A stretch of DNA of 64,000 nt from Alphaproteobacteria bacterium. GTDB lineage: Bacteria; Pseudomonadota; Alphaproteobacteria; Micropepsales; Micropepsaceae. Shown one piece after another: positions 3,001 through 52,001 of the stretch. The notes under the pieces are model-generated. The model was not told the DNA's origin, ran no database searches, and saw only the letters and a program-made list of their open reading frames with translations. Position numbers and translations under genes: made by a program. The stretch is from the NCBI GenBank assembly GCA_947473475.1, contig CANJBZ010000001.1, positions 1 through 64,000 on the forward strand. Direction: 5' to 3'. How positions within the stretch are numbered: the stretch's first letter is position 1; each line of letters starts with the position of its first letter.

Positions 3001-4588
3001 CTTCCAGTTCGCGAATGGCACATTCAGCGCGGCCGAAATCCCCAACGACGCCCCGACGGCCATCGCGATTTCAGTCTCCAACGTTGATGAGAATGCCACC
3101 AATGGCACGGTTGTTGGTTCGCTGTCCGACACCGATGCGGACGCTCCGCTGGGCGACACGGCAGCCTACTCTTTGCTCGACGATGCCGGTGGCCGGTTTG
3201 CAATCAGCGGCTCGAATCTTGTGGTCGCCGACGGCAGCCTCCTCGATTACGAGAACACAACCTCACACGACGTCACCGTACGCGTGACGGATGCCCATGG
3301 CGCCACGTTCGACAAGGTGCTGACGATCGCGCTCAATGATTTGAACGACAACGCCCCTATGTTCGACTCCGGCGTTTCGGCGAGCATTGCGGAAAACACG
3401 CCGGCTGCGACGGTCGTGTACGACGCGGATGCCCATGACGATGACGGCACGGCGCCGAACAACACCATCGTGTATTCGCTCTCCAGCGGCGGCGACAACG
3501 ATCTGTTCACGATCGATGCCGCGACCGGCGAAGTGACGTTCCTTGTCTCCCCGGATTACGAAAATCCGAGCGACGCCGGGACCGGCAATGTCTACGACAT
3601 CGTGGTCCACGCAAACGACGGTGTGCATGACGTCACACAGAACGTGGCGGTCAGCGTCACGGATCTGAACGACATCGCGCCGGTGTTCGACTCCGGTATC
3701 TCGGCAAGCATTGCGGAGAACATGCCGGCGACGACCGTCGTGTACGACGCGAATGCCCACGACAATGACGGCATCGCGCTAAACAACACGATCGCGTATT
3801 CGCTCTCTAGCGGTGGCGACAACGATCTGTTCTCGATCGATGCGACGACTGGCGAAGTGGCGTTCCTTGTGTCGCCGGATTACGAAAATCCGAGCGATGC
3901 CGGGACCAACAATGTCTACGACATCGTCGTTCATGCGAATGACGGCGTGCATGACGTCACACAGAACGTGGCGGTCAGCGTCACGGATCTGAACGACATC
4001 GCGCCGGTGTTCGACTCGGGCATTTCGGCAAGCGTCGCGGAAAATATGGCGGCTACGACCGTCGTGTACGACGCGAATGCCCATGACAATGACGGCACCG
4101 CGCCAAACAACACGGTTACGTATTCGCTATCGAGCGGCGGCGACAACGATCTGTTCTCGATCGATGCCACGACTGGCGAAGTGACGTTCCTTGCGTCGCC
4201 GGATTACGAAAACCCGAGCGATGCCGGGACCGACAACGTCTACGACATCGTGGTCCACGCAAACGACGGCGTGCATGACGTCACACAGAACGTGGCGATC
4301 ACCGTTACGGACGTGTCCGAATTGGCGACAGCCGGGCCCGACACGATTGCCGGAGCCGGCGGTAACGACTCCATTGATGGCCTTGCCGGTAGCGATTCAC
4401 TCAGCGGCAATGGCGGCGACGATACGTTGGCCGGCAGTGACGGCAACGACACGCTGGACGGCGGCACTGGCGCCGACAGCATGAGCGGCGGCGATGACAA
4501 CGACGCTTATATCGTCGACGATAGCGGCGACACCGTTTCGGAAACCGGCACGGGTATCGACACAGTATTCGCCGGGCTCAACGCCTAA
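50..4588 (+). CDS. RTX/cadherin-repeat secreted protein, N-terminal part (ends at an in-frame TAA)
   Basis: This is the first 1512 residues of a giant calcium-binding repeat protein. Glycine/aspartate-rich RTX nonapeptides (GGxGNDxL type) fill residues about 55-990 and resume after about 1430. Between them lie four cadherin-like domains (about 997-1427), the last three being near-identical 108-residue tandem copies. There is no Sec signal peptide, as expected for a type I secretion substrate. The frame ends at TAA 4586-4588, inside a motif that reads AYTLGSNLE in sister repeats, and the same frame stays open to 7354. The truncated product lacks the C-terminal secretion signal. The ATG at 50 is uncertain: a terminator-like hairpin (69-82 plus TTTT) lies just inside it. 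No HlyB/HlyD/TolC-type exporter gene is in the window. Likely role, if intact: a surface adhesin or matrix protein. Confidence 0.85.
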   Translation: MTQHQPGASKPFSLNQTGTQSRRHPAHFVSAIYNSLDAASVHIVVGAGLDDSSAFDDIIYGGDGNTDTTDGAFGDGDTLEAGDGNNWVDGGSGDDSIEATGTGNNVLLGGAGHDTVVGSHGNDVIDGYDGPDVLYGDSTDVNDTTGGNDTIYAAFGDDTAWGNGGNDSILGGKNSNELHGGAGNDTVSALDGSNTIFGDAGNDSLDSGTGQFGSSSVEGGLGDDTINGVGVLYGDLSSNPAVPVGGNDVITGTGTMFGGIGNDQITGSGALFGEAGDDTLTGTSEDPLTDGHLQFISDGSGNTLLQVDVDGIDGPAGWQTALILNNILPGAIGSENFTYGFFNQYPVYATVPGLSFDGPGDDTWTGTSGNDTFTDHQGDNAENGLDGNDLFTNVAMGTGSDAYTGGPGQDEYRIFWQPGSHADVITDFTGGYLLDITHHWIYGDRLDLRNIMVNPSGIHGGDGNDVVNGTGDLTGDAGNDTITGEGTLDGGDGNDSLVSGVGDTTLLGGIGDDNLKGGAGNDSLDGGTGNNVAYYDGPRSHYTVALLTDNGDADPSNDVYVIVDNFEDVAGAGLGNTDHLVRVQHAIFLGGADTNGGAPFDLLLTPATVGGVYDAGTASDTLIGDDFDNGPGQTIPDNPGTFEGFGGNDCIVGNGGNDELRGDGGNDTLYGDSTNPGSTISGNDTLSGGDGIDSMTGGRGDDLYTVSNTGDVVVENLNEGHDTVYTQLNSYTLDGNVEDLSFSGFGFLGAGNFTGHGNDLDNVITGGDVIGGVGGNDSLEGFGGNDTLYGLSGTDILEGDSGFGNDSLVGGADNDTLIGNDGNDTLDGGTGADSMTGGNGNDAYIVDDASDIVSEIGTGLDTVYTSLSSYTLGSNLEDLTGAGAFTGQGNGLDNHITGGSGNDSLTGLAGNDSLNGGSGGNDTLIGGDDNDTLSGGTGDDSLDGGDGVDTAVFGNAWVSYTVTGTGPFTISDGSGTETVSNVENFQFANGTFSAAEIPNDAPTAIAISVSNVDENATNGTVVGSLSDTDADAPLGDTAAYSLLDDAGGRFAISGSNLVVADGSLLDYENTTSHDVTVRVTDAHGATFDKVLTIALNDLNDNAPMFDSGVSASIAENTPAATVVYDADAHDDDGTAPNNTIVYSLSSGGDNDLFTIDAATGEVTFLVSPDYENPSDAGTGNVYDIVVHANDGVHDVTQNVAVSVTDLNDIAPVFDSGISASIAENMPATTVVYDANAHDNDGIALNNTIAYSLSSGGDNDLFSIDATTGEVAFLVSPDYENPSDAGTNNVYDIVVHANDGVHDVTQNVAVSVTDLNDIAPVFDSGISASVAENMAATTVVYDANAHDNDGTAPNNTVTYSLSSGGDNDLFSIDATTGEVTFLASPDYENPSDAGTDNVYDIVVHANDGVHDVTQNVAITVTDVSELATAGPDTIAGAGGNDSIDGLAGSDSLSGNGGDDTLAGSDGNDTLDGGTGADSMSGGDDNDAYIVDDSGDTVSETGTGIDTVFAGLNA
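3362..4333 (+). repeat. Three tandem 324-bp cadherin-domain repeats
   Basis: Units start with TTCGACTC at 3362, 3686 and 4010, giving an exact 324-bp period (108 codons). Encoded copies differ at only a few residues (for example GTGNVYD, GTNNVYD and GTDNVYD near the ends). Each carries cadherin-type calcium-binding residues (AEN, DxND-like, DYENP). Such identity suggests recent duplication or gene conversion and could allow copy-number change by recombination. Confidence 0.9.
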
Positions 4589-4612
4589 ACGCTTGGAAGC
4601 AACCTGGAGAAT

Positions 4613-7354
4613 TTGGTCTTCACCGGGGCCGGTGACTTCTCAGGCCAGGGCAATTCGCTCGACAACAGCATCGCTGGTGGAGCGGGCAACGACACCCTCT
4701 TCGGTCTTGCCGGAAACGACACCCTGGACGGCATGGGCGGAACCGACGTCATGATCGGCGGCACGGGCAACGATACCTACATCGTCGACAATGCCGGCGA
4801 CGCGATGTTGGAAGGTACGGGGTTGGGTTCGGGTACCGACACCATCAAGACAACGCTCAACAGCTACTCGCTGGCGGCGCTGATCAACTTCGAAAACCTA
4901 ACCTTCATCGGTGCGGGCAATTTCTCTGGTACCGGCAACGGCGGGAACAACACAATCACCGGCAGTGGCGGCAACGACACGCTTAACGGCGGTACAGGCG
5001 CCGATTCGATGAACGGCGGTCTCGGCAACGACAGTTACATTGTCGACAATGCCGGCGATCAACTCGGCGATGCCGGTGGACGTGATGCCGTCATAACGTC
5101 CCTCACCAGCTACACGCTTGCAGGGGGCTTCGAAGACCTTGCGTATATTGGTGCGGGTAATTTCACCGGCACGGGCAATACGTCCGACAACAGCATCACC
5201 GGCGGTTCCGGCAGGGACAGCCTGACCGGCAACGACGCCAATGACACACTCGATGGCGGTCTCAACCGAGACACCATGATCGGCGGCGATGGCAACGACA
5301 CCTATGTCGTCGACAACGCTTTGGATGTGGTTTCCGAGACTGGCACGGGCATCGATACTGTCATCACCTCCTTGACCGCCTATACGCTCGGTTCCAACCT
5401 CGAGAACCTTACCTACACCGACGGACTCGCATTCAAGGGCGCCGGCAACGCTGCCGATAATGCGATCACCGGCGGGACCGGCAACGATACGTTGGACGGC
5501 TTGGCGGGCGCCGACACCATGACCGGCGGCGATGGCAACGACACCTACATTGTCGACAATGCCGGTGACGTGGTGGTCGAGACGGGCGCCGGTATCGATA
5601 CGGTAAAGGTCTCAACCGACAGTTACAGCATCGCCGGAACACTGGTCGACATTCTGACCTACACCGGGGGCGGCAACTTCGCCGGCACCGGCAACGGGTT
5701 GGCAAACACCATCACCGGCGGCTCAGGCAACGATACCATCGACGGTGGAGCCGGCGTGGACCGTCTCGTCGGTCTGGCGGGTGACGATGTCTATCACGTC
5801 GACGATGCTGGCGACGTCATCGTGGAAGGCGGCGCTGCGGGAACGGACGCCGTGCTTGCAAGCACCAGCTACACGCTGGCTGCCAATGTCGAAAACCTCA
5901 TCTACACGACCGCGGACTACCTGTCCTCGGGCACCGGCAGCTTCGCCGGCACGGGTAACAGCTCGAGCAACATCATTACCGGCGGCTCCGGTGGCAACAC
6001 GTTGTCGGGTCTCACCGGCAGCGACACGCTCGTTAGCGGGATCGGCAACGACTGCTTGGATGGCGGACTGGGCGCCGACTCGATGAGCGGCGGCGCAGGC
6101 GATGACACCTATGTCATCGACAACTCGCTCGACACGTTCCTTGAAGCGTCCGGAATCGGTAGCGGAGACGATCAGGTGCGGACGTCGCTCTCCGCCTACA
6201 CACTGGCAGCCAATGTCGAAGATCTCGTCTACACCGGTGCGGGCAACTTCGGCGGCACCGGCAACGACGCGGACAACGACATCACCGGCGGCTCGGGCGC
6301 CGATACGCTGGACGGCGGCATCGGTGCGGACACGATGACCGGCGGCGATGGCAACGACACCTATGTCGTCGACAACTTTGGCGACAACGTGGTCGAGGCC
6401 GGTAGCGGTATCGATACGGTCAAGACGACTCTTGGCGCCTACACGCTGGGTGGCAATCTCGAGATCCTGACCTACACCGATGGGGGCGACTTCACCGGTC
6501 AGGGCAACGATGTCGACAACACCATCACTGGAGGCATCGGCAACGACTCGCTGGACGGCGGCATCGGCAACGACCGCCTGAGTGCAGGCGCGGGCACCGA
6601 CGTTCTGAGCGGCGGTACCGGAGCCGATACTCTGTTGGGTGGCACCGGCGCAGACACCTATTATGCCGACAGTTCCGATTCGATCACGGAGTCGGGTGCC
6701 GATATTGATGTGGTGCATACGTCGGGTAACTTTACTCTCGGCTCTAGCCTGGAAGTGCTGATTTACGATGGCGGTTCCAACTTCAACGGCACCGGCAATC
6801 TCAGCAACAACAGCCTCTATGGCGGCGGGTTTAACGACGTGCTGGATGGTGCCGGTGGCAATGACGAGGTTTATGCCGGCGCCGGCGCTGATACGGTGAT
6901 TGGCGGCTTCGGAGCGGATAAGCTCTATGGTGAAGGCGGTGCCGACTCGCTCGACGGTGGGTCGGGCAACGACAGCATCGACGGCGGCGCGGGCTTCGAC
7001 TTCATGCGCGGCGGTGCCGGCGGGGACAAGTTCATCTTCACCGCATCCGACGGCTTGTCCGGTGGCGCGATGATCGGCGAGATCATGGACTTTAGCCATG
7101 CTCAGAGCGACAAGATCGATCTCTCTGCCATCGACGCGACTGGCGCTCCGGGGTCGGCCTTCACCTTCCCAGGCGGTGTGCCGGGTGGTGCCTTCACGGG
7201 TACGGCGGGTACTCCGGTGCCGGGTCAGGTCCACTTCGTGGTCACTGGTACGGGCGTGAACGTCGAAGGCGACATCAATGGCGACGGCGTTGCCGACTTC
7301 GTCATCATGGTCGATGGGGTAGCTTCGCTCGCCACCACCGACTTCATCCTGTAA
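4613..7354 (+). CDS. RTX repeat protein, C-terminal part with type I secretion signal
   Basis: This continues the gene at 50-4588 in the same reading frame; codons 4589-4612 (TLGSNLEN) link the stop to this segment. A possible independent start is TTG 4613, but I see no convincing ribosome-binding site, so separate translation is doubtful. It contains repeated modules of about 90-110 residues (GADTMTGGDGNDTYVVDN, then xYTLxxNLENL, then GNGxxNTITGG). The end is a serralysin/M10-type C-terminus: a DFSHAQSDKIDLSAIDA segment, then a GDINGDGVADFVI stretch ending in DFIL. In this family that end is the uncleaved type I secretion signal. Intact, the whole protein would be about 2433 residues. Read alone this part is 913 residues. 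Confidence 0.75.
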   Translation: MVFTGAGDFSGQGNSLDNSIAGGAGNDTLFGLAGNDTLDGMGGTDVMIGGTGNDTYIVDNAGDAMLEGTGLGSGTDTIKTTLNSYSLAALINFENLTFIGAGNFSGTGNGGNNTITGSGGNDTLNGGTGADSMNGGLGNDSYIVDNAGDQLGDAGGRDAVITSLTSYTLAGGFEDLAYIGAGNFTGTGNTSDNSITGGSGRDSLTGNDANDTLDGGLNRDTMIGGDGNDTYVVDNALDVVSETGTGIDTVITSLTAYTLGSNLENLTYTDGLAFKGAGNAADNAITGGTGNDTLDGLAGADTMTGGDGNDTYIVDNAGDVVVETGAGIDTVKVSTDSYSIAGTLVDILTYTGGGNFAGTGNGLANTITGGSGNDTIDGGAGVDRLVGLAGDDVYHVDDAGDVIVEGGAAGTDAVLASTSYTLAANVENLIYTTADYLSSGTGSFAGTGNSSSNIITGGSGGNTLSGLTGSDTLVSGIGNDCLDGGLGADSMSGGAGDDTYVIDNSLDTFLEASGIGSGDDQVRTSLSAYTLAANVEDLVYTGAGNFGGTGNDADNDITGGSGADTLDGGIGADTMTGGDGNDTYVVDNFGDNVVEAGSGIDTVKTTLGAYTLGGNLEILTYTDGGDFTGQGNDVDNTITGGIGNDSLDGGIGNDRLSAGAGTDVLSGGTGADTLLGGTGADTYYADSSDSITESGADIDVVHTSGNFTLGSSLEVLIYDGGSNFNGTGNLSNNSLYGGGFNDVLDGAGGNDEVYAGAGADTVIGGFGADKLYGEGGADSLDGGSGNDSIDGGAGFDFMRGGAGGDKFIFTASDGLSGGAMIGEIMDFSHAQSDKIDLSAIDATGAPGSAFTFPGGVPGGAFTGTAGTPVPGQVHFVVTGTGVNVEGDINGDGVADFVIMVDGVASLATTDFIL

Positions 7355-11218: not shown

Positions 11219-11276
11219 CGCCCCCTCCGCCCGATTTTGCCGGGCGCCTCCCCGTAACAACGGGGGAGGAAACTAG
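11219..11276. repeat. GC-rich palindromic element (CCTCCCCCGTTGTTACGGGGGAGG type)
   Basis: The core CTCCCCGTAACAACGGGGGAG and flanking CCCCCTCC/GCCGGGCG segments match the family at 43640-43702, 44921-44981 and 45711-45800. It sits between the ligase and thioesterase genes and overlaps the thioesterase stop region. Confidence 0.75.
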
Positions 11277-42237: not shown

Positions 42238-43596
42238 ATGGCGCAGGCAGGTAGAACGGACATTCTGGCGGTTGTGGAGAATCAGGAGCGAAGCTGGTTC
42301 GCCTGGTCCACATTCCTGCTGTGCTGTCTGGTCATGTTGGCGGACGGTTTCGACAACCAGGCGATTAATTACGCCGCGCCGACCATCATCAAGGAATGGG
42401 GCATCGAGCGCGCGCTGATGACGCCGGTGTTCAACATCAGCATCGTCGGCTGGATGACGGGGTCCATCGTGTTCGCCATGCTGGCGGACCGAATCGGACG
42501 GCGTCCGGCCACCTTGCTGGCTGCGTTTCTGTTCGGCGGCTTCACGCTGGCCATTCCGCTGTCCACCAATCTCTACGAGCTGGCCTTCTTGCGCTTCTGC
42601 GCCGCGTTTGGTGTGGGCGGAGCCATGCCAATGGCGATCGCGCTGGTGTCCGATTACGCCAAATCTAAAAGCCGCGGCTTCCGCATTACGCTGATGTATC
42701 TCGGCTATACGGCTGGTTCGTCCGGCGGCGGCCTTCTGGCGGCCGAGATTATTCCGGAATATGGCTGGCGCTCGGTGTTTTATGTCGGCGGCATCGGCGC
42801 GCTGCTGATAGGCCTGTTGCTTGCCGCCGCCTTGCCGGAATCGGTACGCTTTCTGGTTCTGCGCAAACCCGGCGACCGTCGCATTCTCGGCTATGCGCGC
42901 AAATTGCGGCCGAGCGTGGGTTACGCCGACGGCGCCACTTTCGGTATCGAGGAAACGGTTAGGACGGGCGTGCCGGTCTCGCATCTGTTCACCGAGGGAC
43001 GCTCGGCCATGACCATTTTCCTGTGGCTGGCGCTGGGCTTCTCGTTCTTCACGCACTTCTTCCTGTCGCAGTGGCTGACGACGCTGCTGACCGACGAGAT
43101 CGGCTATGCCGATGCCGCGCGTACGCAGGCGTTGTTTCAGGCAGGCGCCGCGTTCGCCTTTATCTTCGGCTATCTGATCGACAAGAAGGGCGTGCCGGTG
43201 ATGACGCTGGCGATGATCCTTGGCGCGCTGCCGGTCGCTGCCATCGGGCTCGTTGCCGGCAGCGGTGTCGGCATCACCCTCATAATGGCGCTGGCCTCGG
43301 GCATTCTGGTGCTGGGCGGCAATATCGGCCTGAACGCGATTTCCAGTATGATCTATCCGACCTTCATCCGCTCCACCGCGACCGGCGCCGCTTTTGCAGT
43401 TGCGCGCATCGGCGCGATTTTGGGTCCGATGATCGCGGGCTATCTGATCTATCTGAAGACACCGCTCGACACGATTTTCATTGTCGGCGGTCTGCCGATG
43501 CTGGCGGCCGGCGCGGCATGCTTCATGCTGGATCGCTCCATCACGCCCGACGCCGCCCGCGAAATGGCGTCCCGCTCCGCCCTGGCCCGGCACTAA
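42238..43596 (+). CDS. MFS transporter, aromatic acid:H+ symporter (AAHS) type
   Basis: Twelve-helix carrier, 452 residues. The TM1 DGFD motif (LADGFDNQAINYAAP) is the hallmark of the AAHS family (PcaK, BenK), where the aspartates are needed for uptake. The loop 2-3 motif is LADRIGRRPATLL, and LPESVRFLVLRKPG follows TM6. Substrate candidates are hydroxybenzoate-like acids. GGCGGAG precedes the ATG. A perfect inverted repeat lies in the leader region. A class II aldolase-like gene follows after a palindromic repeat. Confidence 0.92.
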   Translation: MAQAGRTDILAVVENQERSWFAWSTFLLCCLVMLADGFDNQAINYAAPTIIKEWGIERALMTPVFNISIVGWMTGSIVFAMLADRIGRRPATLLAAFLFGGFTLAIPLSTNLYELAFLRFCAAFGVGGAMPMAIALVSDYAKSKSRGFRITLMYLGYTAGSSGGGLLAAEIIPEYGWRSVFYVGGIGALLIGLLLAAALPESVRFLVLRKPGDRRILGYARKLRPSVGYADGATFGIEETVRTGVPVSHLFTEGRSAMTIFLWLALGFSFFTHFFLSQWLTTLLTDEIGYADAARTQALFQAGAAFAFIFGYLIDKKGVPVMTLAMILGALPVAAIGLVAGSGVGITLIMALASGILVLGGNIGLNAISSMIYPTFIRSTATGAAFAVARIGAILGPMIAGYLIYLKTPLDTIFIVGGLPMLAAGAACFMLDRSITPDAAREMASRSALARH

Positions 43597-43605
43597 ATTT
43601 TTCTC

Positions 43606-43702
43606 CTCCACGAAGCAGTGGAGGGGCGCGACGTATATTTTCCTCCCCCGTTGTTACGGGGGAGGTGGCGCGCGCAGCGCGACGGAGGGGGGCGCGGTCT
43701 AA
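43606..43702. repeat. GC-rich palindromic element (CCCGTTGTTACGGG type)
   Basis: CTCCTCCACGAAGCAGTGGAG hairpin followed by CCTCCCCCGTTGTTACGGGGGAGG-type core (given in part) and a GGCGCGCGCAGCGCGACGGAGG tail. It fills the gap between the MFS and aldolase-like genes and ends only 12 bp before the aldolase ATG, so it probably sits in its leader. Confidence 0.85.
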
Positions 43703-43714
43703 CCGCGCAACAAA

Positions 43715-44401
43715 ATGGACAAATACAGAAAACTGCTCGCCGATGCCGGCCGTGTGCTGGCCCATGAAGGCCAAGGCGATTACGTCGCCGGCCACGTCTC
43801 GCTGCGTCACCCGGACGATCCCAGTCTCTTTCTGATGAAGCCCGCGGGTATCGGCCTCGAAGAGATGACAGATGAAAACATCATCACCGTCGACATCGAA
43901 GGCAACAAGGTCTCGGGCAGCGGTGGACGCCACAACGAAGTGTTCATTCACTCCGAGGTGCTGCGTGCGCGCCCCGAATGCCAAGCCGTGATTCACACCC
44001 ACGCAATTTATGCGGTGGTGTTTTCCTCACTCGGCAAGCAGCTGCAAGCCGTGTCGAACGACGGCGCCTTTTTCGCCAACGGCCTTCCCGTCTTCGATGA
44101 AACGACGGAACTGATCATCGATCAGGCGCGCGGAAAATCCGTTGCGCGCACGCTCGGTGACAAGGGCGCCCTGCTGCTGCGCAATCACGGCATCGTCACA
44201 ACGGCGACGACAATGGAAGAAGCAGTGTGGCTGGCGTTGAAACTCAATCAGTCCTGTCATGCGCAATTGATGGCGGAATGGGCCGGCGGGCCCAAGCTTG
44301 TCGGCGATCCGCAGCAGGCGAAAGTCAAAGGCAGTTACGCGGCGCGTCCCGATATTTTTAGAGGTACGTTTAATTACGTACTGCGCCGCTGCGGCGGCTG
44401 A
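43715..44401 (+). CDS. Class II aldolase/adducin-family protein
   Basis: A 228-residue zinc enzyme of the fuculose-1-phosphate aldolase/adducin fold. Zinc ligands are the two histidines of VIHTHAIYAVV and the histidine of LLRNHGIV; the acidic partner is probably in GRHNEVFIHSEV. Members include sugar-phosphate aldolases and decarboxylases of hydroxy aromatic or keto acids. No ribosome-binding site is obvious next to the ATG; a palindromic repeat lies directly upstream. A terminator follows. Confidence 0.88.
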   Translation: MDKYRKLLADAGRVLAHEGQGDYVAGHVSLRHPDDPSLFLMKPAGIGLEEMTDENIITVDIEGNKVSGSGGRHNEVFIHSEVLRARPECQAVIHTHAIYAVVFSSLGKQLQAVSNDGAFFANGLPVFDETTELIIDQARGKSVARTLGDKGALLLRNHGIVTTATTMEEAVWLALKLNQSCHAQLMAEWAGGPKLVGDPQQAKVKGSYAARPDIFRGTFNYVLRRCGG

Positions 44402-44408
44402 TCGTTGG

Positions 44409-44435
44409 AACATCCGTTCCGTAAACGGATGTTTT
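44409..44435 (+). terminator. Intrinsic terminator after the aldolase-like gene
   Basis: Perfect 10-bp stem AACATCCGTT (44409-44418) and AACGGATGTT (44424-44433) with loop CCGTA, ending in TTTT and followed by another T-run at 44442-44446. Confidence 0.85.
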
Positions 44436-44502
44436 GACGGCATTTTTACGCATCGATAATGTTTCGCAGCATCAAGCGCCGCAATGTGATTGTGCGCGCT
44501 GC

Positions 44503-44516
44503 TTGACCTGCATCAA
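44503..44516 (+). promoter_or_regulatory. Candidate FNR/FixK-type box
   Basis: TTGACCTGCATCAA differs at one position from the FNR/FixK consensus TTGAT-N4-ATCAA. Its centre is 66 bp upstream of the ATG of the small exported protein at 44576, compatible with a class II activator site and a short leader. Confidence 0.5.
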
Positions 44517-44575
44517 AGCCCATTCGGCAGCCTGCATTAGGGTTCTCATCAGCAATGATGCTTTGGAGAATTCAA

Positions 44576-44908
44576 ATGCGCGGTTCAAAGAATTTGGTTT
44601 CCGGCTTGATTCTTGGCCTGAGCCTGATCGGTGTTGCCGCCGCAGCTCCGGCGGCTCCTCCGGCTAAGGCGCCAGCCCCGGCAGCGGAGGTGGATTGTCA
44701 GAAGGCCGGTGGCGATGTCAGCGCCCTGATCGACAAGTCGAAGACGGCGCCGAACTTGGCGCAGGCGCGGGCAGCGTTTCAGGTCGGCATCATGGACTGT
44801 ATGGAAGGCGACGACACGGCGGCCATCAAGCACTACGACGACGCCAAGAAATTGCTGACCAACGAAGCGCCAAAAGCGCCGGCCATCAAAATCCCGTCCG
44901 CAGGCTGA
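44576..44908 (+). CDS. Small exported alanine/proline-rich protein
   Basis: About 110 residues from ATG 44576 (TTTGGAGAA upstream). Sec signal MRGSKNLVSGLILGLSLIGV, then an Ala/Pro linker, then a helical domain with two cysteines (VDCQKAGGDVS and GIMDCMEGDD) that could form a disulfide. I do not recognise a family. It has its own promoter region with an FNR/FixK-like box, suggesting oxygen-responsive control. Confidence 0.75.
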   Translation: MRGSKNLVSGLILGLSLIGVAAAAPAAPPAKAPAPAAEVDCQKAGGDVSALIDKSKTAPNLAQARAAFQVGIMDCMEGDDTAAIKHYDDAKKLLTNEAPKAPAIKIPSAG

Positions 44909-44915
44909 TGAATGC

Positions 44916-46292
44916 CTAGTTTTCCTCCCCCGTTGTTACGGGGGAGGGGGACCGCGAAGCGGTGGAGGGGGCGCGGCCGGGCAAGTTGCTTTGGGCATTC
45001 TCGGCCGCCCAATCCAGCAGTTCCGCAATGTGAACTGTCGGCATGTCGCCTGACAAATGCGTCAGACATCCGATGTTCGCCGACGCAATCATCCCAGCAC
45101 CCGTCGATCGGATCGCCGCTAATTTTCGGGTACGCAACTCATTCGCGATCTCCGGGTGCAGCAAGCTGTAGCTTCCCGCCGAGCCGCAGCAGAGATGCGC
45201 ATCGGGAATCGGCGCGAGCTTAAATCCGGCCTCCTTCAGCAACGCCTCCCCGCGTCCGATCACGCGTTGCCCATGCTGCAGCGAGCAGGGCGGGTGATAC
45301 GCGATCACCGGCGCATCGGCCAGCACCACCGCTGTGGCGGGCCGCGCCACTTCCGTAAAATCTTTCACCTTTGCCACGAACGCTTCCGCGCGCGCTTTCC
45401 ATTCCGGCTCATCGGCAAAGACACGCACATATTCTTTCAGGAATGCCGAGCACCCGCTTGCCGTCATTATGACCCCATCGACACCGCCCTTGGCTTGCTC
45501 GGATTCGAACGCGCGGAGAATCGCGCGCGCGTGCTCTTTGCCTTCTTTGGTTTTGCCCATGTGATAGGCCAGCGCCCCACAGCATCCGGTTTTCGGCAAC
45601 GCCTCAACCCGAAGCCCTTGCCGCGCCAGCACGCGCGCCGCCGCATCGTCCGTCTGCGGAGCAAGGACTCTTTGGACGCATCCAGGGAGCAGTAGAACCC
45701 GCGCCCTACTTTCCTCCCCCGTTGTTACGGGGGAGGGGGACCGCATTCCTCCCCCGCTTGCGGGGGAGGTGTCCGCGAAGCGGACGGAGGGGGCGAGGGT
45801 TGACGGATTCTTGACGACCGCCTTCCGCGCCATCACGCCAAGCTTTCCCGGCAAGCGCGATGCAACCGGTGCAAACACCCGTCCCAAGCCCGCCATAACG
45901 GAAAACAATTTCGGCCGCGTCAGGACAAACAGTATGAAATCCCGAAACAGCCTGTCGCCCAGGGGCCGCCGGAAATTTTCTTCGATATAGCCGCGCGATT
46001 TTTCGATCAGCGCCGAATAATCCACGCCCGACGGACACGCCGTCTTACACCCCAGGCAAGACAAGCACTGATCCAGATGCTTCACCGTTTCCGCCGTGGG
46101 CGGCCCGCCGCTCTCCAGCATGGTCTGCATCAGCACAATGCGCCCGCGCGGACCGTCGCGCTCGTCGCCAAGCACCAGATACGTCGGGCACGTCGCGGTG
46201 CAGAAGCCGCAATGCACGCAGGTCCGCAAAGCCTTTTCCGCTTCTTTCGTGTGCGGATCGGTAAGCTGATGGCTGCGAAAATTCGTGCGCAT
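44916..46292 (-). CDS. glcF: Glycolate oxidase iron-sulfur subunit GlcF, with two palindrome-derived insertions
   Basis: Electron-transfer subunit of glycolate oxidase, 458 residues. Two 4Fe-4S motifs lie near the N-terminus (CVHCGFCTATCPTY and CLSCLGCKTACPSGVD); the C-terminal half has two CCG domains (TGCCGALAYHMG and LCCGSAGSYSLL). The ATG at 46292 overlaps the glcE stop by one base (TGATG). A segment of about 30 residues around DTSPASGGGMRSPSPVTTGEES, just before LLLPGCVQ, is encoded by a GC-rich palindromic repeat. The C-terminus RSPSPVTTGEEN comes from another copy. Known GlcF proteins lack both, so the function is probably kept because the insertion is in a linker. Confidence 0.93.
   Translation of the reverse strand: MRTNFRSHQLTDPHTKEAEKALRTCVHCGFCTATCPTYLVLGDERDGPRGRIVLMQTMLESGGPPTAETVKHLDQCLSCLGCKTACPSGVDYSALIEKSRGYIEENFRRPLGDRLFRDFILFVLTRPKLFSVMAGLGRVFAPVASRLPGKLGVMARKAVVKNPSTLAPSVRFADTSPASGGGMRSPSPVTTGEESRARVLLLPGCVQRVLAPQTDDAAARVLARQGLRVEALPKTGCCGALAYHMGKTKEGKEHARAILRAFESEQAKGGVDGVIMTASGCSAFLKEYVRVFADEPEWKARAEAFVAKVKDFTEVARPATAVVLADAPVIAYHPPCSLQHGQRVIGRGEALLKEAGFKLAPIPDAHLCCGSAGSYSLLHPEIANELRTRKLAAIRSTGAGMIASANIGCLTHLSGDMPTVHIAELLDWAAENAQSNLPGRAPSTASRSPSPVTTGEEN
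44921..44981. repeat. Palindromic element overlapping the 3' end of glcF
   Basis: CCCCCGTTGTTACGGGGGAGG followed by GGACCGCGAAGCGGTGGAGG. It encodes the last residues of GlcF (ending RSPSPVTTGEEN) in the same frame as the internal copy at 45711-45800. Confidence 0.85.
45711..45800. repeat. Palindromic element inserted in-frame in glcF
   Basis: CCTCCCCCGTTGTTACGGGG (start of copy), then CCTCCCCCGCTTGCGGGGGAGG-type hairpin and CCGCGAAGCGGACGGAGG tail. Same family as 43606, 44921 and 11219. It is translated as part of GlcF. Confidence 0.85.
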
Positions 46293-47449
46293 CAAACGTC
46301 CTTGTACATGCGGCCCGGATTCAGCACGCGCTTGGGATCGAATGCCGCCTTGACGCTCCGCGTCAGCGCCGCGCGCACAGGTGATTCCGGCTCGAAGACG
46401 GACAAGCTTTCGCGTGCCGCGCGGCTCGCCCGCACCAGCGTTGCATGTCCGCCAAGCCGTCCGGCGATCCCTCGCAAGCGCGTGGCGGTCTCCACGTTCG
46501 CCGGAAGACGCAGCCACAACAAACCTCCCGCCCAATCCGCGTACCAATCGGCGGCGTCGGCCGCGTTGATCGCCGCGGGCGCATCGGCGGGCGAAACACA
46601 AAGCCGCCAAATGTCGTTGGGTCCGTCTGAAAAAGTGCTGGCATTGCTGACATCGCGAAACAGCGCCGCAGTTTCTTCTACCTCCAGCGTGGCACAGTCT
46701 TGTGCCGTAAACTCGCTTTTCAGAACCGCAAGTTTCTCGGCGACGGCCGCCGGCGAGCCTTCAATGCGGATATAGGCCGTGTTACGCGCCGGCAAATAGG
46801 CAAGCCCCGTGGGATCAATCGGCAATTGATGGGTGCGCCGCAGGAGTGCCAACCCCACATCCGCGCTGCAATTGCCCACCGCTATGGCCTGGACGCGCTC
46901 CGCCAGCGGGCTGACCCGCAACGTGATTTCCGTGAGCACACCCAGCGTGCCGAATGCCCCGCACATCAGTTTGGGTAGATCGAAGCCGGTGACGTTTTTG
47001 ATGACATACCCGCCGGCTCTAACGATCTCTCCCCGGCCGTTGACGAACCGGCAGCCGATCACGGAATCGCGCACCGCGCCCGCTTTCACACGCCGCGAGC
47101 CGCAGGCGTTCGCCGCGACGACACCGCCCAATGTTGCGCGGCCGGCTTCCGCTCCGAACAACGGTCCCCAATCCGCGGGTTCAAACGCCAGCATCTGCCG
47201 CTTCCCGGCAAGCTCCGCCTGAATGTCACCGATGGGCGTGCCCGCGCGCACGGTAAGAACCAATTCCTCCGGTTCATATTTCAGAATGCCGGAAAGCGCG
47301 CTGAGGTCGAGCATCGCATCGGCGTTTACCGGCCGTCCGAATGCGCGCTTGGTGCCGCCGCCCACAACTTCAAACGACGAGCCCTTGTCCGCCGCCGCGC
47401 GCACCGCATCGGCAACATCCGTTTCGCTCATCGGACAAAGGGTGTTCAT
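46292..47449 (-). CDS. glcE: Glycolate oxidase FAD-binding subunit GlcE
   Basis: A 385-residue FAD_binding_4 protein. FAD-site segments are FEVVGGGTKRAFG, ATLGGVVAANACGSRRVKAGAVRDSVIG (in part) and YVIKNVTGFDLPKLMCGAFGTLG. The start is ATG 47449 (MNTLCPMSE); upstream residues in the open frame are repeat-derived and unlike GlcE. The AGGTGG ribosome-binding site lies at the edge of the palindromic element 47456-47593. It is translationally coupled to glcF. Confidence 0.93.
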   Translation of the reverse strand: MNTLCPMSETDVADAVRAAADKGSSFEVVGGGTKRAFGRPVNADAMLDLSALSGILKYEPEELVLTVRAGTPIGDIQAELAGKRQMLAFEPADWGPLFGAEAGRATLGGVVAANACGSRRVKAGAVRDSVIGCRFVNGRGEIVRAGGYVIKNVTGFDLPKLMCGAFGTLGVLTEITLRVSPLAERVQAIAVGNCSADVGLALLRRTHQLPIDPTGLAYLPARNTAYIRIEGSPAAVAEKLAVLKSEFTAQDCATLEVEETAALFRDVSNASTFSDGPNDIWRLCVSPADAPAAINAADAADWYADWAGGLLWLRLPANVETATRLRGIAGRLGGHATLVRASRAARESLSVFEPESPVRAALTRSVKAAFDPKRVLNPGRMYKDV

Positions 47450-47455
47450 CAAATC

Positions 47456-47593
47456 CACCTTCCCCTTGAGGGAGGGTCGAACGCGACGTAGCCCAAAGGG
47501 CGAAGTCGGGTTCGGGGAGGGGACGTTTCGGAAAGATGTCCCCTCCCCGAAGCCGCTTCGCGTCTTGGACCCTCCCTCAAGGGGAGGGTAGGA
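47456..47593. repeat. Composite palindromic element between glcD and glcE
   Basis: Outer ACCTTCCCCTTGAGGGAGGG and CCCTCCCTCAAGGGGAGGGT pair. An inner CGGGGAGGGGAC/GTCCCCTCCCCG pair surrounds a short loop. It could attenuate or process the glcDEF mRNA and supplies the region just before the glcE ribosome-binding site. Confidence 0.88.
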
Positions 47594-47615
47594 GGATGGG
47601 ATTTCGCTTGCATCG

Positions 47616-49103
47616 TCACAGCCGCGGCAAATTCGGAAAGGGGAGGCGGCCGTCGCGCACGTGCATGTGGCCGAGTTCGACGCAGGCGTGCAGGATCGGG
47701 AAGACCTTTCCCGGGTTAAGCAAACCCGCGCCGTCAAACGCGCATTTCAGCTTTTCCTGCTGCGCCAGATCGATGTCGGAAAACATCTCGCCCATGAGCG
47801 CTTTTTTCTCGACACCGACACCGTGCTCGCCGGTCAGAACGCCGCCCATCTCGACGCATAGTTTCAGAATGTCCGCGCCGAAGGCTTCGGCTTTCTCCAG
47901 CGCGCCGTCCTTCATACAGTCGAACACGATCAGCGGATGCAGATTGCCGTCGCCCGCGTGAAACACGTTGCAGCAGACGAGCCCGTAATGATCGGACATC
48001 CCGGATATTCGATCCAGCATTTCCGGCAGGCGTTTGCGTGGGATCGTGCCGTCCATGCACAGCATGTCCGGTTCAAGCCGTCCCATGGCGCCGAACGCGG
48101 CTTTCCGGCCCAGCCACGCCCGGGCGCGTTCGGCTTCATCCTCGCAATTGCGGATTTCGGTGGCGCCGCAGCCGGTGGCAATGTCCGCAATGCGCTGCGC
48201 ATCGTCGGCGACTTCGGCGGGCATGCCGTCAATCTCGGCCAGAAGAATCGCCTCCGCGCCCGCCGGGTAATTGGGGGCGCAAAAGGCTTCCACGGCTTCG
48301 ATGCAGCGCCGGTCCATGAATTCCAGCGCGGCGGGAATGACTCCGGAGGCGATGATGGCGGCGACCGTCTCGCCCGCGGCACGCACGGTGGGAAACGCGA
48401 TCAGCAGCGTGCGGGTCACCGGCGCGCGGGGCAGAATGCGCAAGGTGGCTTCCGTCACTACGCCGAGCAATCCTTCCGAACCGCAGACGACGCTCAGCAA
48501 ATCGAGCCCGCCATCACCCGCATGCTTGCCGCCCAGACGAATGCGTTCGCCGCCCAGCAGCACTAGTTCGACACCCATCAAATTCTGCGTGGTCAAACCA
48601 TATTTGAGGCAGTGAATGCCGCCGGAGTTCTCCGCCACATTGCCGCCGATGGTGCAGGCGATCTGGCTGGACGGATCGGGGGCGTAGTAGAATCCGTTCG
48701 CCTGTACCGCGCGCGTCACCGAAGCGTTGGTGACTCCCGGCTGTACGACCACGCAGCGGTTTTCGTAGTCGATCTCCAATATCCGGGTCATGCGGGACAT
48801 GCCCAGCAGAATCGCATCCGCCAGCGGCAGCGCGCCGCCGGACAGCGAGGTACCCGCCCCGCGCGGGACGATCCGCACATTCTCCCGCGCGGCATAGGCC
48901 ATCACCTGAGAGATCTGCTCGGCCGTCTGCGGCAGCACGCACAGAAGTGGCTTCTGCCGGTAGGCGGTCAGCGCGTCACAGTCGAACGCCGTCAGCGTGG
49001 CATCGTCGCCGATGACGCCGTCCGGCACGATTCGCGTCATCGCGGCGGCAATCTCGGCGCGGCGCGAAAGGGTCTTTGGGTCGGGTGCGGGAAGATCGAT
49101 CAT
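47616..49103 (-). CDS. glcD: Glycolate oxidase catalytic subunit GlcD
   Basis: FAD-dependent oxidation of glycolate to glyoxylate, 495 residues from ATG 49103. The FAD_binding_4 motif is VRIVPRGAGTSLSGGALP, followed by PDPSSQIACTIGGNVAENSGG (in part) and VCGSEGLLGVVTEATLRI. The C-terminal FAD-oxidase domain has NVFHAGDGNLHPLI and TGEHGVGVEKK, containing the active-site histidines. It is first in glcDEF and divergent from the glycolate/lactate permease with 95 bp between, where a GntR-like half-site pair lies. Confidence 0.95.
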   Translation of the reverse strand: MIDLPAPDPKTLSRRAEIAAAMTRIVPDGVIGDDATLTAFDCDALTAYRQKPLLCVLPQTAEQISQVMAYAARENVRIVPRGAGTSLSGGALPLADAILLGMSRMTRILEIDYENRCVVVQPGVTNASVTRAVQANGFYYAPDPSSQIACTIGGNVAENSGGIHCLKYGLTTQNLMGVELVLLGGERIRLGGKHAGDGGLDLLSVVCGSEGLLGVVTEATLRILPRAPVTRTLLIAFPTVRAAGETVAAIIASGVIPAALEFMDRRCIEAVEAFCAPNYPAGAEAILLAEIDGMPAEVADDAQRIADIATGCGATEIRNCEDEAERARAWLGRKAAFGAMGRLEPDMLCMDGTIPRKRLPEMLDRISGMSDHYGLVCCNVFHAGDGNLHPLIVFDCMKDGALEKAEAFGADILKLCVEMGGVLTGEHGVGVEKKALMGEMFSDIDLAQQEKLKCAFDGAGLLNPGKVFPILHACVELGHMHVRDGRLPFPNLPRL

Positions 49104-49109
49104 TGAAGC

Positions 49110-49118
49110 GGTATTACC
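49110..49118. promoter_or_regulatory. Candidate GntR/FadR-type operator between glcD and the permease
   Basis: GGTATTACC fits the FadR-subfamily core GGT-N3-ACC used by GlcC, LldR and PdhR. It is seven bases upstream of the glcD ATG. Flanking symmetry is weak. No GntR gene is in the window. Confidence 0.45.
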
Positions 49119-49198
49119 ACAAATAGGGCCCGTCACCCCCCTTTACGAGGCAGCGCGAAACGCCAACACTCCACAAAAAACGGGGGGCTGGGGCAGTC

Positions 49199-50860
49199 AT
49201 GTGGAATCAAGCGTACGATCCATTGGGAAGCATGGTGCTGTCGACATTCGTCGCAGCTGTGCCGACCATTTTTCTGCTCGCCATTATTGCTTCGGGCAAG
49301 ATGAAAATCCACACGGCGGCAGTCGTGACGGCTGTGCTCGCCGCCCTGATTGCGATTGCGATCTTCGGCATGCCGGCGGGCTTGGCGGTGCGGGCCGTCG
49401 CGTTGGGCGCGCTGGCGGGCTTCTTCCCCATTGGCTGGATCATCGTCAACGTGATTTTCCTTTACCGGCTCCAGGTGGAGAAGGGCGCCTTCGCCATCAT
49501 TCAGCAATCGGTCGGCGCGGTGACCAAGGACCGCCGCTTGCAGCTTCTGCTTATTGCATTTGCCGTGGGCGCGTTTTTTGAAGGCTCGTCCGGCTTCGGC
49601 ACGCCCGTGGCCATGACTGGATCGATCCTGATGAGCCTGGGTTTTTCGCCGCTGGCGGCGTCCGGCCTTTCTCTCATCGCCAACACCGCGCCGGTGGCGT
49701 TCGGTGCGCTGGGCGCCCCCATCACCGGCCTGCAGCAGGCGACTCAACTCGATTACAACGCGCTTGGCGCCATGGTCGGCCGCCAGCTTCCGCCCTTTTC
49801 CGTTATCGTCCCGTTCTGGCTGATTTGGGCCTTCGCGGGATTCCGGGGCGCGCTCGAAATCTGGCCGGCGGCCGTGGTTTGCGGCCTGACCTTCGGCGTT
49901 TCGCAGTTTGCGATCTCCAATTATATCAGCCCTTCGCTGGCGGCGATCGGTGCGGCGTTGATCTGTCTCTTCTGCCTGCGGGCCTTCTTATACGTCTGGC
50001 ACCCGAAGACCATCTGGACATCCGCGGCGCTGAGGACGGCCGACAATTCGCATTCCTCCATGCCCGTGCCGCCGCCTTTGACCCTGAAACCGACCTCTGT
50101 GGAAGTTTGGCAGGCGTGGCTGCCGCTGGTCCTGCTCTGCGTCATCCTGGTGACCTGGGGCATGCCGCCGGTGAAGGCGTTCCTGGACAGCATCTTCTCG
50201 CCGCGCTTCGACGTCGCCGGGCTGCACAATGTGGTGCAGCGCATGCCGCCTGTCGCGGCGATGCCGACGCCCGAGCCGGCGTTCTTTCGCTTTTTCTTTC
50301 TGTCCTACAGCGGGACGGCGATTTTGCTGACGGCCATCCTATCGGGCTTTGTCATGGGCTTCTCGCCCGCGCGTATGCTGAAGATCTACATCGGCACGTT
50401 CAGCGTCACGAAATATTCGACGATCACCATTTCGGCGATGGTGGCGTTGGCGACCTTGACTCGTTTTGCGGGCGTGGACGCGACGCTGGGCCTCGCGTTC
50501 GCGGCCAGCGGCGTGCTGTACCCCTTCTTTGGAACGCTGCTGGGTTGGGTCGGTGTTGCAACGACCGGCTCCGACACGGCGTCCAATCTCTTGTTCGGCA
50601 ACCTGCAGCGCATTACGTCGGAGCAGCTTGGCCTCTCGCCCATCCTGATGGCGGCGGCCAATTCATCCGGCGGCGTCATGGGCAAGATGATCGATGCGCA
50701 GTCCATCGTGGTGGCCTCCACCGCGACGGGCTGGGTGGGACACGAAAGCTCCATCCTGCGCTTCGTCTTCTTCCACTCGATCGTGTTGGCGGTGCTCGTC
50801 GGAATTTTGGTGACGCTGCAAGCTTACGTCTATCCGTTCACCGAGATGGTGGTGAGGTAA
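49199..50860 (+). CDS. glcA: Glycolate / L-lactate permease (GlcA/LldP family)
   Basis: Inner-membrane LctP-family symporter, 553 residues with about 12-14 hydrophobic helices. Family motifs include FFEGSSGFGTPVAMTGSIL, ANTAPVAFGALGAPITGL and, near the end, TGSDTASNLLFGNLQ and NSSGGVMGKMIDAQSIVVA. It is divergent from glcDEF, so glycolate is the most likely substrate. The cytochrome P460 gene follows after four bases, implying co-transcription. Confidence 0.94.
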   Translation: MWNQAYDPLGSMVLSTFVAAVPTIFLLAIIASGKMKIHTAAVVTAVLAALIAIAIFGMPAGLAVRAVALGALAGFFPIGWIIVNVIFLYRLQVEKGAFAIIQQSVGAVTKDRRLQLLLIAFAVGAFFEGSSGFGTPVAMTGSILMSLGFSPLAASGLSLIANTAPVAFGALGAPITGLQQATQLDYNALGAMVGRQLPPFSVIVPFWLIWAFAGFRGALEIWPAAVVCGLTFGVSQFAISNYISPSLAAIGAALICLFCLRAFLYVWHPKTIWTSAALRTADNSHSSMPVPPPLTLKPTSVEVWQAWLPLVLLCVILVTWGMPPVKAFLDSIFSPRFDVAGLHNVVQRMPPVAAMPTPEPAFFRFFFLSYSGTAILLTAILSGFVMGFSPARMLKIYIGTFSVTKYSTITISAMVALATLTRFAGVDATLGLAFAASGVLYPFFGTLLGWVGVATTGSDTASNLLFGNLQRITSEQLGLSPILMAAANSSGGVMGKMIDAQSIVVASTATGWVGHESSILRFVFFHSIVLAVLVGILVTLQAYVYPFTEMVVR

Positions 50861-50864
50861 AGCC

Positions 50865-51452
50865 ATGCACCGGGCGGTCCTCGCGGTTGTCGCTATCGCC
50901 ATTGCTTCGGCGGCGACCGTCATTGCGCCGCGTGCGCAAACATCCGATGGTCCGGCCTATACGGCGGACGGGCGTTTGAATTTTCCTGCGGGCTATCGGA
51001 CGTGGGTGTTTCTCTCGTCCGGCCTCGACATGTCGTATTCGCCGTTCGCCCTGCCCGGACGGCATTCCTTCACCAACGTCTTCGTCAATCCGGGTGCGTA
51101 TGAGTCGTTTCAGAAGACCGGCACATGGCCCGACAAAACGACGCTCATTCTGGAAGTGCGGCGCGGGGAGACGAGCGGCTCCATCAACAAGAACGGCCAG
51201 TTTCAGACCGATATCGTGCAGACCGAAGTGCATCTGAAAGACGAGGCGCGCGGCGGCTGGGCGTTCTACGGTTTTCGCGATCAGACAACGCCCGCCACGA
51301 TGACCGCGCGCACCGCCGATTGCTATGCGTGCCATCAGGCTAACGGCGCCGTGGATACGACGTTCGTACAATTCTATCCGACGCTGCTGCCCCTCGCGCG
51401 CGAGAAGAAGACGTTAAGTACGGGTTATCTAGCCGGAGAGGCGAAGAAATGA
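50865..51452 (+). CDS. Cytochrome P460-family protein
   Basis: Exported c-type heme protein, 195 residues, with a signal peptide (residues 1-24). One heme site CYACHQANGAVDTTFVQFYP is typical of cytochrome P460, where a lysine also cross-links the heme; the N-terminal half has GYRTWVFLSSG and VFVNPGAYESFQKTG. Family members oxidise hydroxylamine or bind NO. Why it is coupled to a glycolate permease (four-base gap) is unclear; it could accept electrons or detoxify in the periplasm. Confidence 0.9.
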   Translation: MHRAVLAVVAIAIASAATVIAPRAQTSDGPAYTADGRLNFPAGYRTWVFLSSGLDMSYSPFALPGRHSFTNVFVNPGAYESFQKTGTWPDKTTLILEVRRGETSGSINKNGQFQTDIVQTEVHLKDEARGGWAFYGFRDQTTPATMTARTADCYACHQANGAVDTTFVQFYPTLLPLAREKKTLSTGYLAGEAKK

Positions 51453-51456
51453 CTTC

Positions 51457-51590
51457 ACCCTCCCCTTGAGGGAGGGTCGAATTTTGGAGCGGAGCGAGAA
51501 AATTCGGGGAGGGGACTGCGTCCTCGCCGATATCCCCTCCCCGAAATTGCTGGCGCAATTTCGACCCTCCCTCAAGGGGAGGGTGGGGGA
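51457..51590. repeat. Composite palindromic element (CCTCCCCTTGAGGG type)
   Basis: Outer ACCCTCCCCTTGAGGGAGGG and CCCTCCCTCAAGGGGAGGGT. Inside are GGGGAGGGGAC/ATCCCCTCCCCG and AAATTGCTGGCGCAATTT. It lies between the convergent P460 and small exported protein genes. Confidence 0.88.
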
Positions 51591-52001
51591 TTAGCGTTTG
51601 CTGTTGAAGCGCGGCGCATATTCCCCGTTTGGTCCAAAGGTCGGATCGGCCAATGCGCCATTCGTCGGAAAATCCGAGAACGCGGGGTTGCCGGTCTGGA
51701 AAGCCGGATTGGCAAAGGGGAAAGACGGGTTGGTGAAGGGCGTACCGGGATCGGACTGCATAGGGAAGCGTGGCTGACCGACGCTCACACTGGCGGAGCC
51801 GCCAAAGCCAAACGCACCGCCATTATAGGTGCCAAAGCTCTGGGCCGTTCCCGAAACCCGCTTTTGCGGCTTGTTCGCGGGATCGGCGAAACCCGTCGTG
51901 CCTCTGTTGCTGGGCATCGTGGTGCTGGACATAGCCCAACCCGGCGCTGTGCCGAGAACGACCATCGCCAGTGCAATCGAGAGTGTCAGCCTACCGGTCA
52001 T
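51591..52001 (-). CDS. Small exported Phe/Asn/Pro-rich repeat protein
   Basis: A 136-residue protein with a signal peptide ending near GWAMSS. The C-terminal half has short degenerate repeats (PFTNPSFPFANPAFQTGNPAF). GGAGACC precedes the ATG. No family recognised; possibly a surface or matrix protein. It lies downstream of the PEP-CTERM gene on the same strand, but a terminator separates them. Confidence 0.75.
   Translation of the reverse strand: MTGRLTLSIALAMVVLGTAPGWAMSSTTMPSNRGTTGFADPANKPQKRVSGTAQSFGTYNGGAFGFGGSASVSVGQPRFPMQSDPGTPFTNPSFPFANPAFQTGNPAFSDFPTNGALADPTFGPNGEYAPRFNSKR

Follow-up and report, generated by a model that had tools for sequence, protein, structure and literature searches.

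The CGTC and GTAG REPs are short hairpins that lie mostly between genes, often as inverted pairs (Di Nocera, De Gregorio and Rocco 2013, PMC3733652). Some REPs are intragenic and in frame, including copies in DnaE2 and tRNA synthetases, where they encode about 20-30 residues; DnaE2 and repair genes are recurrent hosts (PMC3733652). The CGTC type predominates in Alphaproteobacteria, has no known transposase, and carries an unpaired CGTC tag (TGTC, CCTC) at one foot of an 8-9 bp stem that starts with A-T pairs, together with a CCA tail (PMC3733652). In Rickettsia, the palindromic repeats RPE-1 to RPE-7, which are 100-150 bp long, are found in genes with the frame kept, and different RPE groups can share identical or nearby sites in orthologues (PMC3767692). 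Enterobacterial RU-1/2/3 repeats have likewise been found within genes (PMC2759123) and, with the Wolbachia palindromic repeats, provide cases in which small repeats become parts of proteins.

The best-known palindromic repeats that are read in frame are those of Rickettsia and Wolbachia. We describe a different, GC-rich family that does likewise in core enzymes, including a tRNA synthetase subunit, of an uncultured alphaproteobacterium with a 3.9-Mb genome. We refer to it as family 1. Our starting point was a window, that is, the whole stretch of 64,000 nt that was analysed, in which the gene for GlcF, the iron-sulphur subunit of glycolate oxidase, carries translated copies of the repeat.

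Repeat-encoded segments of GlcF

The gene is identified as glcF by the NCBIfam equivalog NF008434, which it matches with 414 bits against a cut-off of 333, by the presence of Pfam CCG and Fer4 domains, and by a start position that is conserved with homologues. The preliminary description of this DNA had proposed that a palindromic repeat is translated inside GlcF, just before the first CCG domain, and that a second copy forms the C-terminus of the protein, and both proposals hold (Table 1). The internal insert, translated in the glcF frame as LAPSVRFADTSPASGGGMRSPSPVTTGEE, lies in the linker that leads from the Fer4/helical part to the first CCG domain, which begins at residue 199, and consists of two fused family-1 copies, one truncated and one complete. 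At the end of the gene, a separate complete copy encodes ...RAPSTASRSPSPVTTGEEN and ends in TTGEEN, with the TAG stop supplied by the flank. The copies had also been said to share the peptide core RSPSPVTTGEE in the same frame. This is true of the truncated copy, whose minus strand encodes that peptide, and of the C-terminal copy, but the complete internal copy uses another frame of the minus strand, which gives TSPASGGGM.

Table 1. Coordinates of the features discussed, counted from the first nucleotide of the window.
Feature	Position	Strand	Basis or remark
glcF, glycolate oxidase iron-sulphur subunit, 458 aa, repeat-carrying	44919-46292	minus	NCBIfam, Pfam, conserved start
In-frame insert in GlcF, residues 166-194 (29 extra)	45711-45797	minus	Absent from homologues; pLDDT
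Truncated family-1 copy in glcF	45709-45745	+	First hairpin and left arm of second; ends ...GGGGGACCGC
Complete family-1 copy in glcF, joined directly to the truncated one	45744-45795	+	Covariance model, 58 bits
Complete family-1 copy forming the GlcF C-terminus	44920-44973	+	Covariance model, 73.9 bits; translation
Family-1 copy just upstream of aldolase-like ORF (43715-44401)	43638-43694	+	Covariance model, 75.3 bits
Family-1 copy, apparently outside any gene	11219-11273	minus	Covariance model, 55.5 bits
Second-family copies	47456-47592 and 51446-51587		Pattern matches

GlcF relatives were collected with a profile search of genome contigs, a single-sequence GlcF query having given none. Of the 110 GlcF proteins in the alignment, 107 have a linker, measured from MARKA to the first CCG strand, of no more than 34 residues. 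The three long linkers are those of our protein (45 residues), of the congener G005 (65) and of a Methylobacterium protein (45), in which we did not recognise the additional stretch as any of these repeats. The segment is lacking in about 110 other GlcF proteins, two relatives have different repeats there, and no homologue in the alignment has the same segment without the palindrome. Since about 16 residues of our linker are not repeat-derived, compared with 26-30 in most relatives, the native linker may have been partly deleted. The C-terminal tail, 35 residues from ELLDWA on, falls within the homologue range of 12-44, and its repeat may have been gained when an earlier stop was lost, with no insertion into coding sequence. 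The nearest GlcF shares only about 64% identity, and for this reason neither a target-site duplication nor a precise empty site at the DNA level was obtained for the insert. The nearest named GlcF relatives come from MAGs of uncultured Alphaproteobacteria, and the isolate names of these point to lake water as the habitat.

GlcF seems to tolerate the insertion, given that its homologues do without the segment, that alignment with them shows the invariant cysteines and the other invariant positions to be unchanged, and that the modelled core is well folded. AlphaFold2, run on a 60-sequence alignment, gave a mean pLDDT of 88.1 and a pTM of 0.88, with pLDDT below 50 only at residues 163-181 and 454-458, which lie within or beside the repeat-encoded segments; low confidence there is partly expected, as the alignment did not contain the inserts. 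The model fits repeats that occupy an interdomain linker and the tail of an otherwise well-folded protein. A sequence search at E 1e-5 found no solved structure related to GlcF. Elsewhere in the window, at about 480-7040, GGxGxD-type repeats in long arrays probably belong to an RTX-like calcium-binding protein.

A two-hairpin repeat family and its copies in genes

The family-1 element is about 50-65 nt long and forms two hairpins, TTTCCTCCCCCGTTGTTACGGGGGAGG followed by a variable second hairpin and GGAGGGGGCG. The first stem is nearly invariant (CCTCCCCCGT/ACGGGGGAGG). Among 72 parsed copies, the second hairpin has 35 different sequences, nearly all self-complementary (for example, ACCGC-GAA-GCGGT, ACCATGC-GAA-GCATGGT and ACCGCC-GCA-GGCGGT), so that the hairpin has been kept while its sequence changed. 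A pattern for the first hairpin has 76 strand-matches in the 3.87-Mb genome and its reversed control none, which places the repeat far beyond chance. In the window and 63 other stretches of the same genome (513 kb), a covariance model found 115 matches with E up to 0.01; in the whole genome it found at least 124-134, with 150 candidates scored. All seven genomes of the genus carry family 1, as do 29 of the 37 searched genomes of the bacterial family, and it is thus common enough for a quantitative census. The copies in GlcF belong to a genome-wide structured family and are not random low-complexity coding. Even with the threshold relaxed to E 1, Rfam gave no match to the copies in 43000-52000.

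Most copies that lie close together form inverted pairs (20 arranged '+-' and 3 '-+'). At one locus (L120, about 3000-3130, minus strand), a complete copy sits inside the second-hairpin loop of another copy, with both halves of the host flanking it, which indicates that family 1 inserts as a unit. The fusions of a truncated and a complete copy in GlcF and in Maf have an identical junction and, we infer, may be remnants of such nesting. The left end of the element is flanked by T-rich and the right end by G/C-rich sequence, and no target-site duplication was seen in the flanks.

The preliminary description had taken the family to be otherwise intergenic, which proved incorrect. A coding scan around every fetched copy, followed by Pfam and NCBIfam searches and alignment with relatives, revealed in-frame copies in at least five further homology-supported proteins. 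In GlyS, the beta subunit of glycyl-tRNA synthetase, the insert is a clean 20 residues, the frame is open and full-length, and the segment has no counterpart in 12 of the 13 aligned orthologues (identity up to 81%). Maf contains about 30 residues from family 1 and about 42 that come from a second palindrome family, present as an inverted pair; DnaE2 has an inverted family-1 pair with a second-family hairpin closer to the N-terminus. In a MidA-like methyltransferase, a variable loop shows a net gain from a family-1 copy; the insert is clear in a membrane protein that resembles spermidine synthase, as it is in Maf and DnaE2. In all, six genes with homology support and one gene end hold about nine copies, a lower bound, as it covers the genome stretches with matches. 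Long ORFs over the copies at L104, L116, L126 and L141 were considered as coding insertions and left uncounted, having no Pfam match, as was the long ORF at L118, which resembles an opposite-strand open frame.

The shared reading frame, to which weight had been given, also says little. Stop codons are missing from five or all six frames in 95 of the 111 family-1 copies. Genic copies are read in at least four frames, divided between the two strands: one strand gives SSPVVTGEV and FPPPxxGGG, the other SPSPVTTGEE and TSPASGGGM. Since most copies are open in nearly all frames, agreement between two GlcF copies is weak evidence, and we rejected the shared frame as a sign of protein-level selection. 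The constraint on genic copies is length modulo three.

The second palindromic family (ACCCTCCCCTTGAGGGAGGGT) gives 61 strand-matches genome-wide, often paired in inverted orientation, and is likewise found in frame in Maf, DnaE2 and a ThiD-like kinase (L303). Its copies at 51455-51586 and 47455-47524 resemble whalefall-1 RNA with 29 and 27.8 bits against an Rfam gathering score of 37, which no tested second-family copy attained. These matches suggest that whalefall-1 may be a related REP-like repeat.

Palindromes recur at the same protein sites in relatives. The GlcF linker of the congener G005 (L032) contains an inverted pair of about 140 nt that is read in frame, with feet GTCATCCCC...GGGGACC and GTCATTCCCGG...GGAATCCA; on inspection, the pair resembles CGTC-type REPs. 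In G035, a member of another genus of the family, the same first linker (L334/L335) holds an inverted family-1 pair. Its first copy is oriented opposite to the insert in our genome, so that the insertion was probably a separate event. The linker between the CCG domains of this protein, whose gene is split across two contig ends, holds a second-family hairpin (FNPPLEGGWGK). In DnaE2 of G009, a palindrome (CTTCCCCCTCAAGGGGGGAAG) lies at the site that is occupied in our genome.

Origin and retention of the insertions

We believe that family 1 is very probably a selfish, REP-like element, of which the rare insertions that stay in frame survive in loops, linkers and termini. Its copies are scattered singly and as inverted pairs, mostly between genes. 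Such an element would seldom move and would be purged from most genes; genic copies would persist only if their length preserves the reading frame and they lie in a loop, in a linker between domains or at a terminus. As the element is GC-rich and nearly stop-free in all frames, almost any insertion of compatible length would be translated and would add roughly 10-40 residues. In GlcF, a fused pair was taken up by the disordered linker that precedes the first CCG domain, and the tail arose from a separate copy at the gene end; the protein would be made with the insert, which would be neutral. Movement could depend on a trans-acting enzyme or occur during replication of folded DNA, for which folded single strands at replication would be a plausible substrate.

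The recurrence of palindromes at the same sites invites another reading, in which insertion favours the GlcF linker and the DnaE2 loop, or the repeats there are selectively retained, for example as adjustable interdomain spacers. Three lineages have palindromes in the same GlcF linker, of differing families or orientations, two genera have them at the same DnaE2 site, and DnaE2 and repair genes are hosts to which REPs return (PMC3733652). However, tolerance also predicts repeats recurring in a long disordered linker, nearly all other GlcF homologues have 26-34 repeat-free linker residues, so that the repeat is not required, and GlcF was examined because it had already been hit, so that the recurrence is not an unbiased count. 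We consider this reading unlikely, and give no better chance to a convergent hot spot in the GlcF linker and the one DnaE2 loop at which unrelated palindromes are captured in frame again and again and retained for tuning linker length or expression. Were the hot spot real, free-living Alphaproteobacteria would repeatedly obtain protein linkers from selfish repeats.

That the insert inactivates GlcF, leaving the gene a decaying pseudogene that is still open, we regard as very improbable. As RNA, the inserts form strong hairpins (-53.6 kcal/mol over 96 nt) that could hinder expression, but the full 458-aa frame is open and keeps its invariant cysteines and residues, the adjoining glcD- and glcE-like frames are intact in the ORF list, the modelled core is confident, and a like insert is present in an open, full-length GlyS, which is normally essential. 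Least credible of all is a reading in which no repeat was inserted and the segment is just an assembly artefact or a low-complexity linker of the ordinary lineage-specific sort. Linker sequence does vary across all GlcF homologues, but the same sequence family, with compensated hairpins, is found at more than 100 places in this genome and in 29 of 37 genomes of the bacterial family, and both flanks of the insert belong to one GlcF frame, so that a misjoin is unlikely; this reading is already contradicted by the present data. Hits on one linker by different families, and in opposite orientations, provide a natural experiment that bears on the sites at which proteins can take up additional segments.

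Comparison with REPs and RPEs

In the broad sense family 1 is REP-like, being a short hairpin element with many scattered copies, mostly outside genes. It shares with the CGTC and GTAG REPs its short length, its mostly intergenic position, its pairing and its occasional in-frame presence in DnaE2 and tRNA synthetase genes. Unlike them, it has two adjacent hairpins with a near-invariant first stem, and neither tag is general: on the minus strand, the sequence before the second hairpin is mostly CCACC and, in a minority of copies, CCGTC, and no conserved GTAG tag was found in the family-1 alignment and flanks. The GTAG type has its tag at the foot of the hairpin and goes with a RAYT, a Y1 transposase, encoded in the genome. 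A search of our genome (99% completeness) for Y1_Tnp (PF01797) gave no match, and Y1_Tnp occurs in two of the seven genomes of the genus (L320 in G002 and L321 in G005), though all seven carry family 1. RAYT-driven mobility is unsupported in this genome, and the presence of family 1 where Y1_Tnp is absent is in line with the reported want of a dedicated transposase for CGTC REPs.

The likeness to RPEs that had been noted at the outset stands for behaviour, without implying membership or kinship. Like RPEs, family 1 inserts into genes with the frame kept (GlcF, GlyS, Maf, DnaE2, the MidA-like protein and the spermidine-synthase-like protein), and different repeats occupy one site in orthologues, as in GlcF. 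Compared by description, family 1 differs from RPEs in being GC-rich and shorter and in using several reading frames. The RU-1/2/3 and Wolbachia repeats belong to other taxa and have other sequences. Because it fits neither the CGTC nor the GTAG definition, we call family 1 a new repeat family of a known kind, one that extends the intragenic, in-frame insertion already described for REPs and RPEs.
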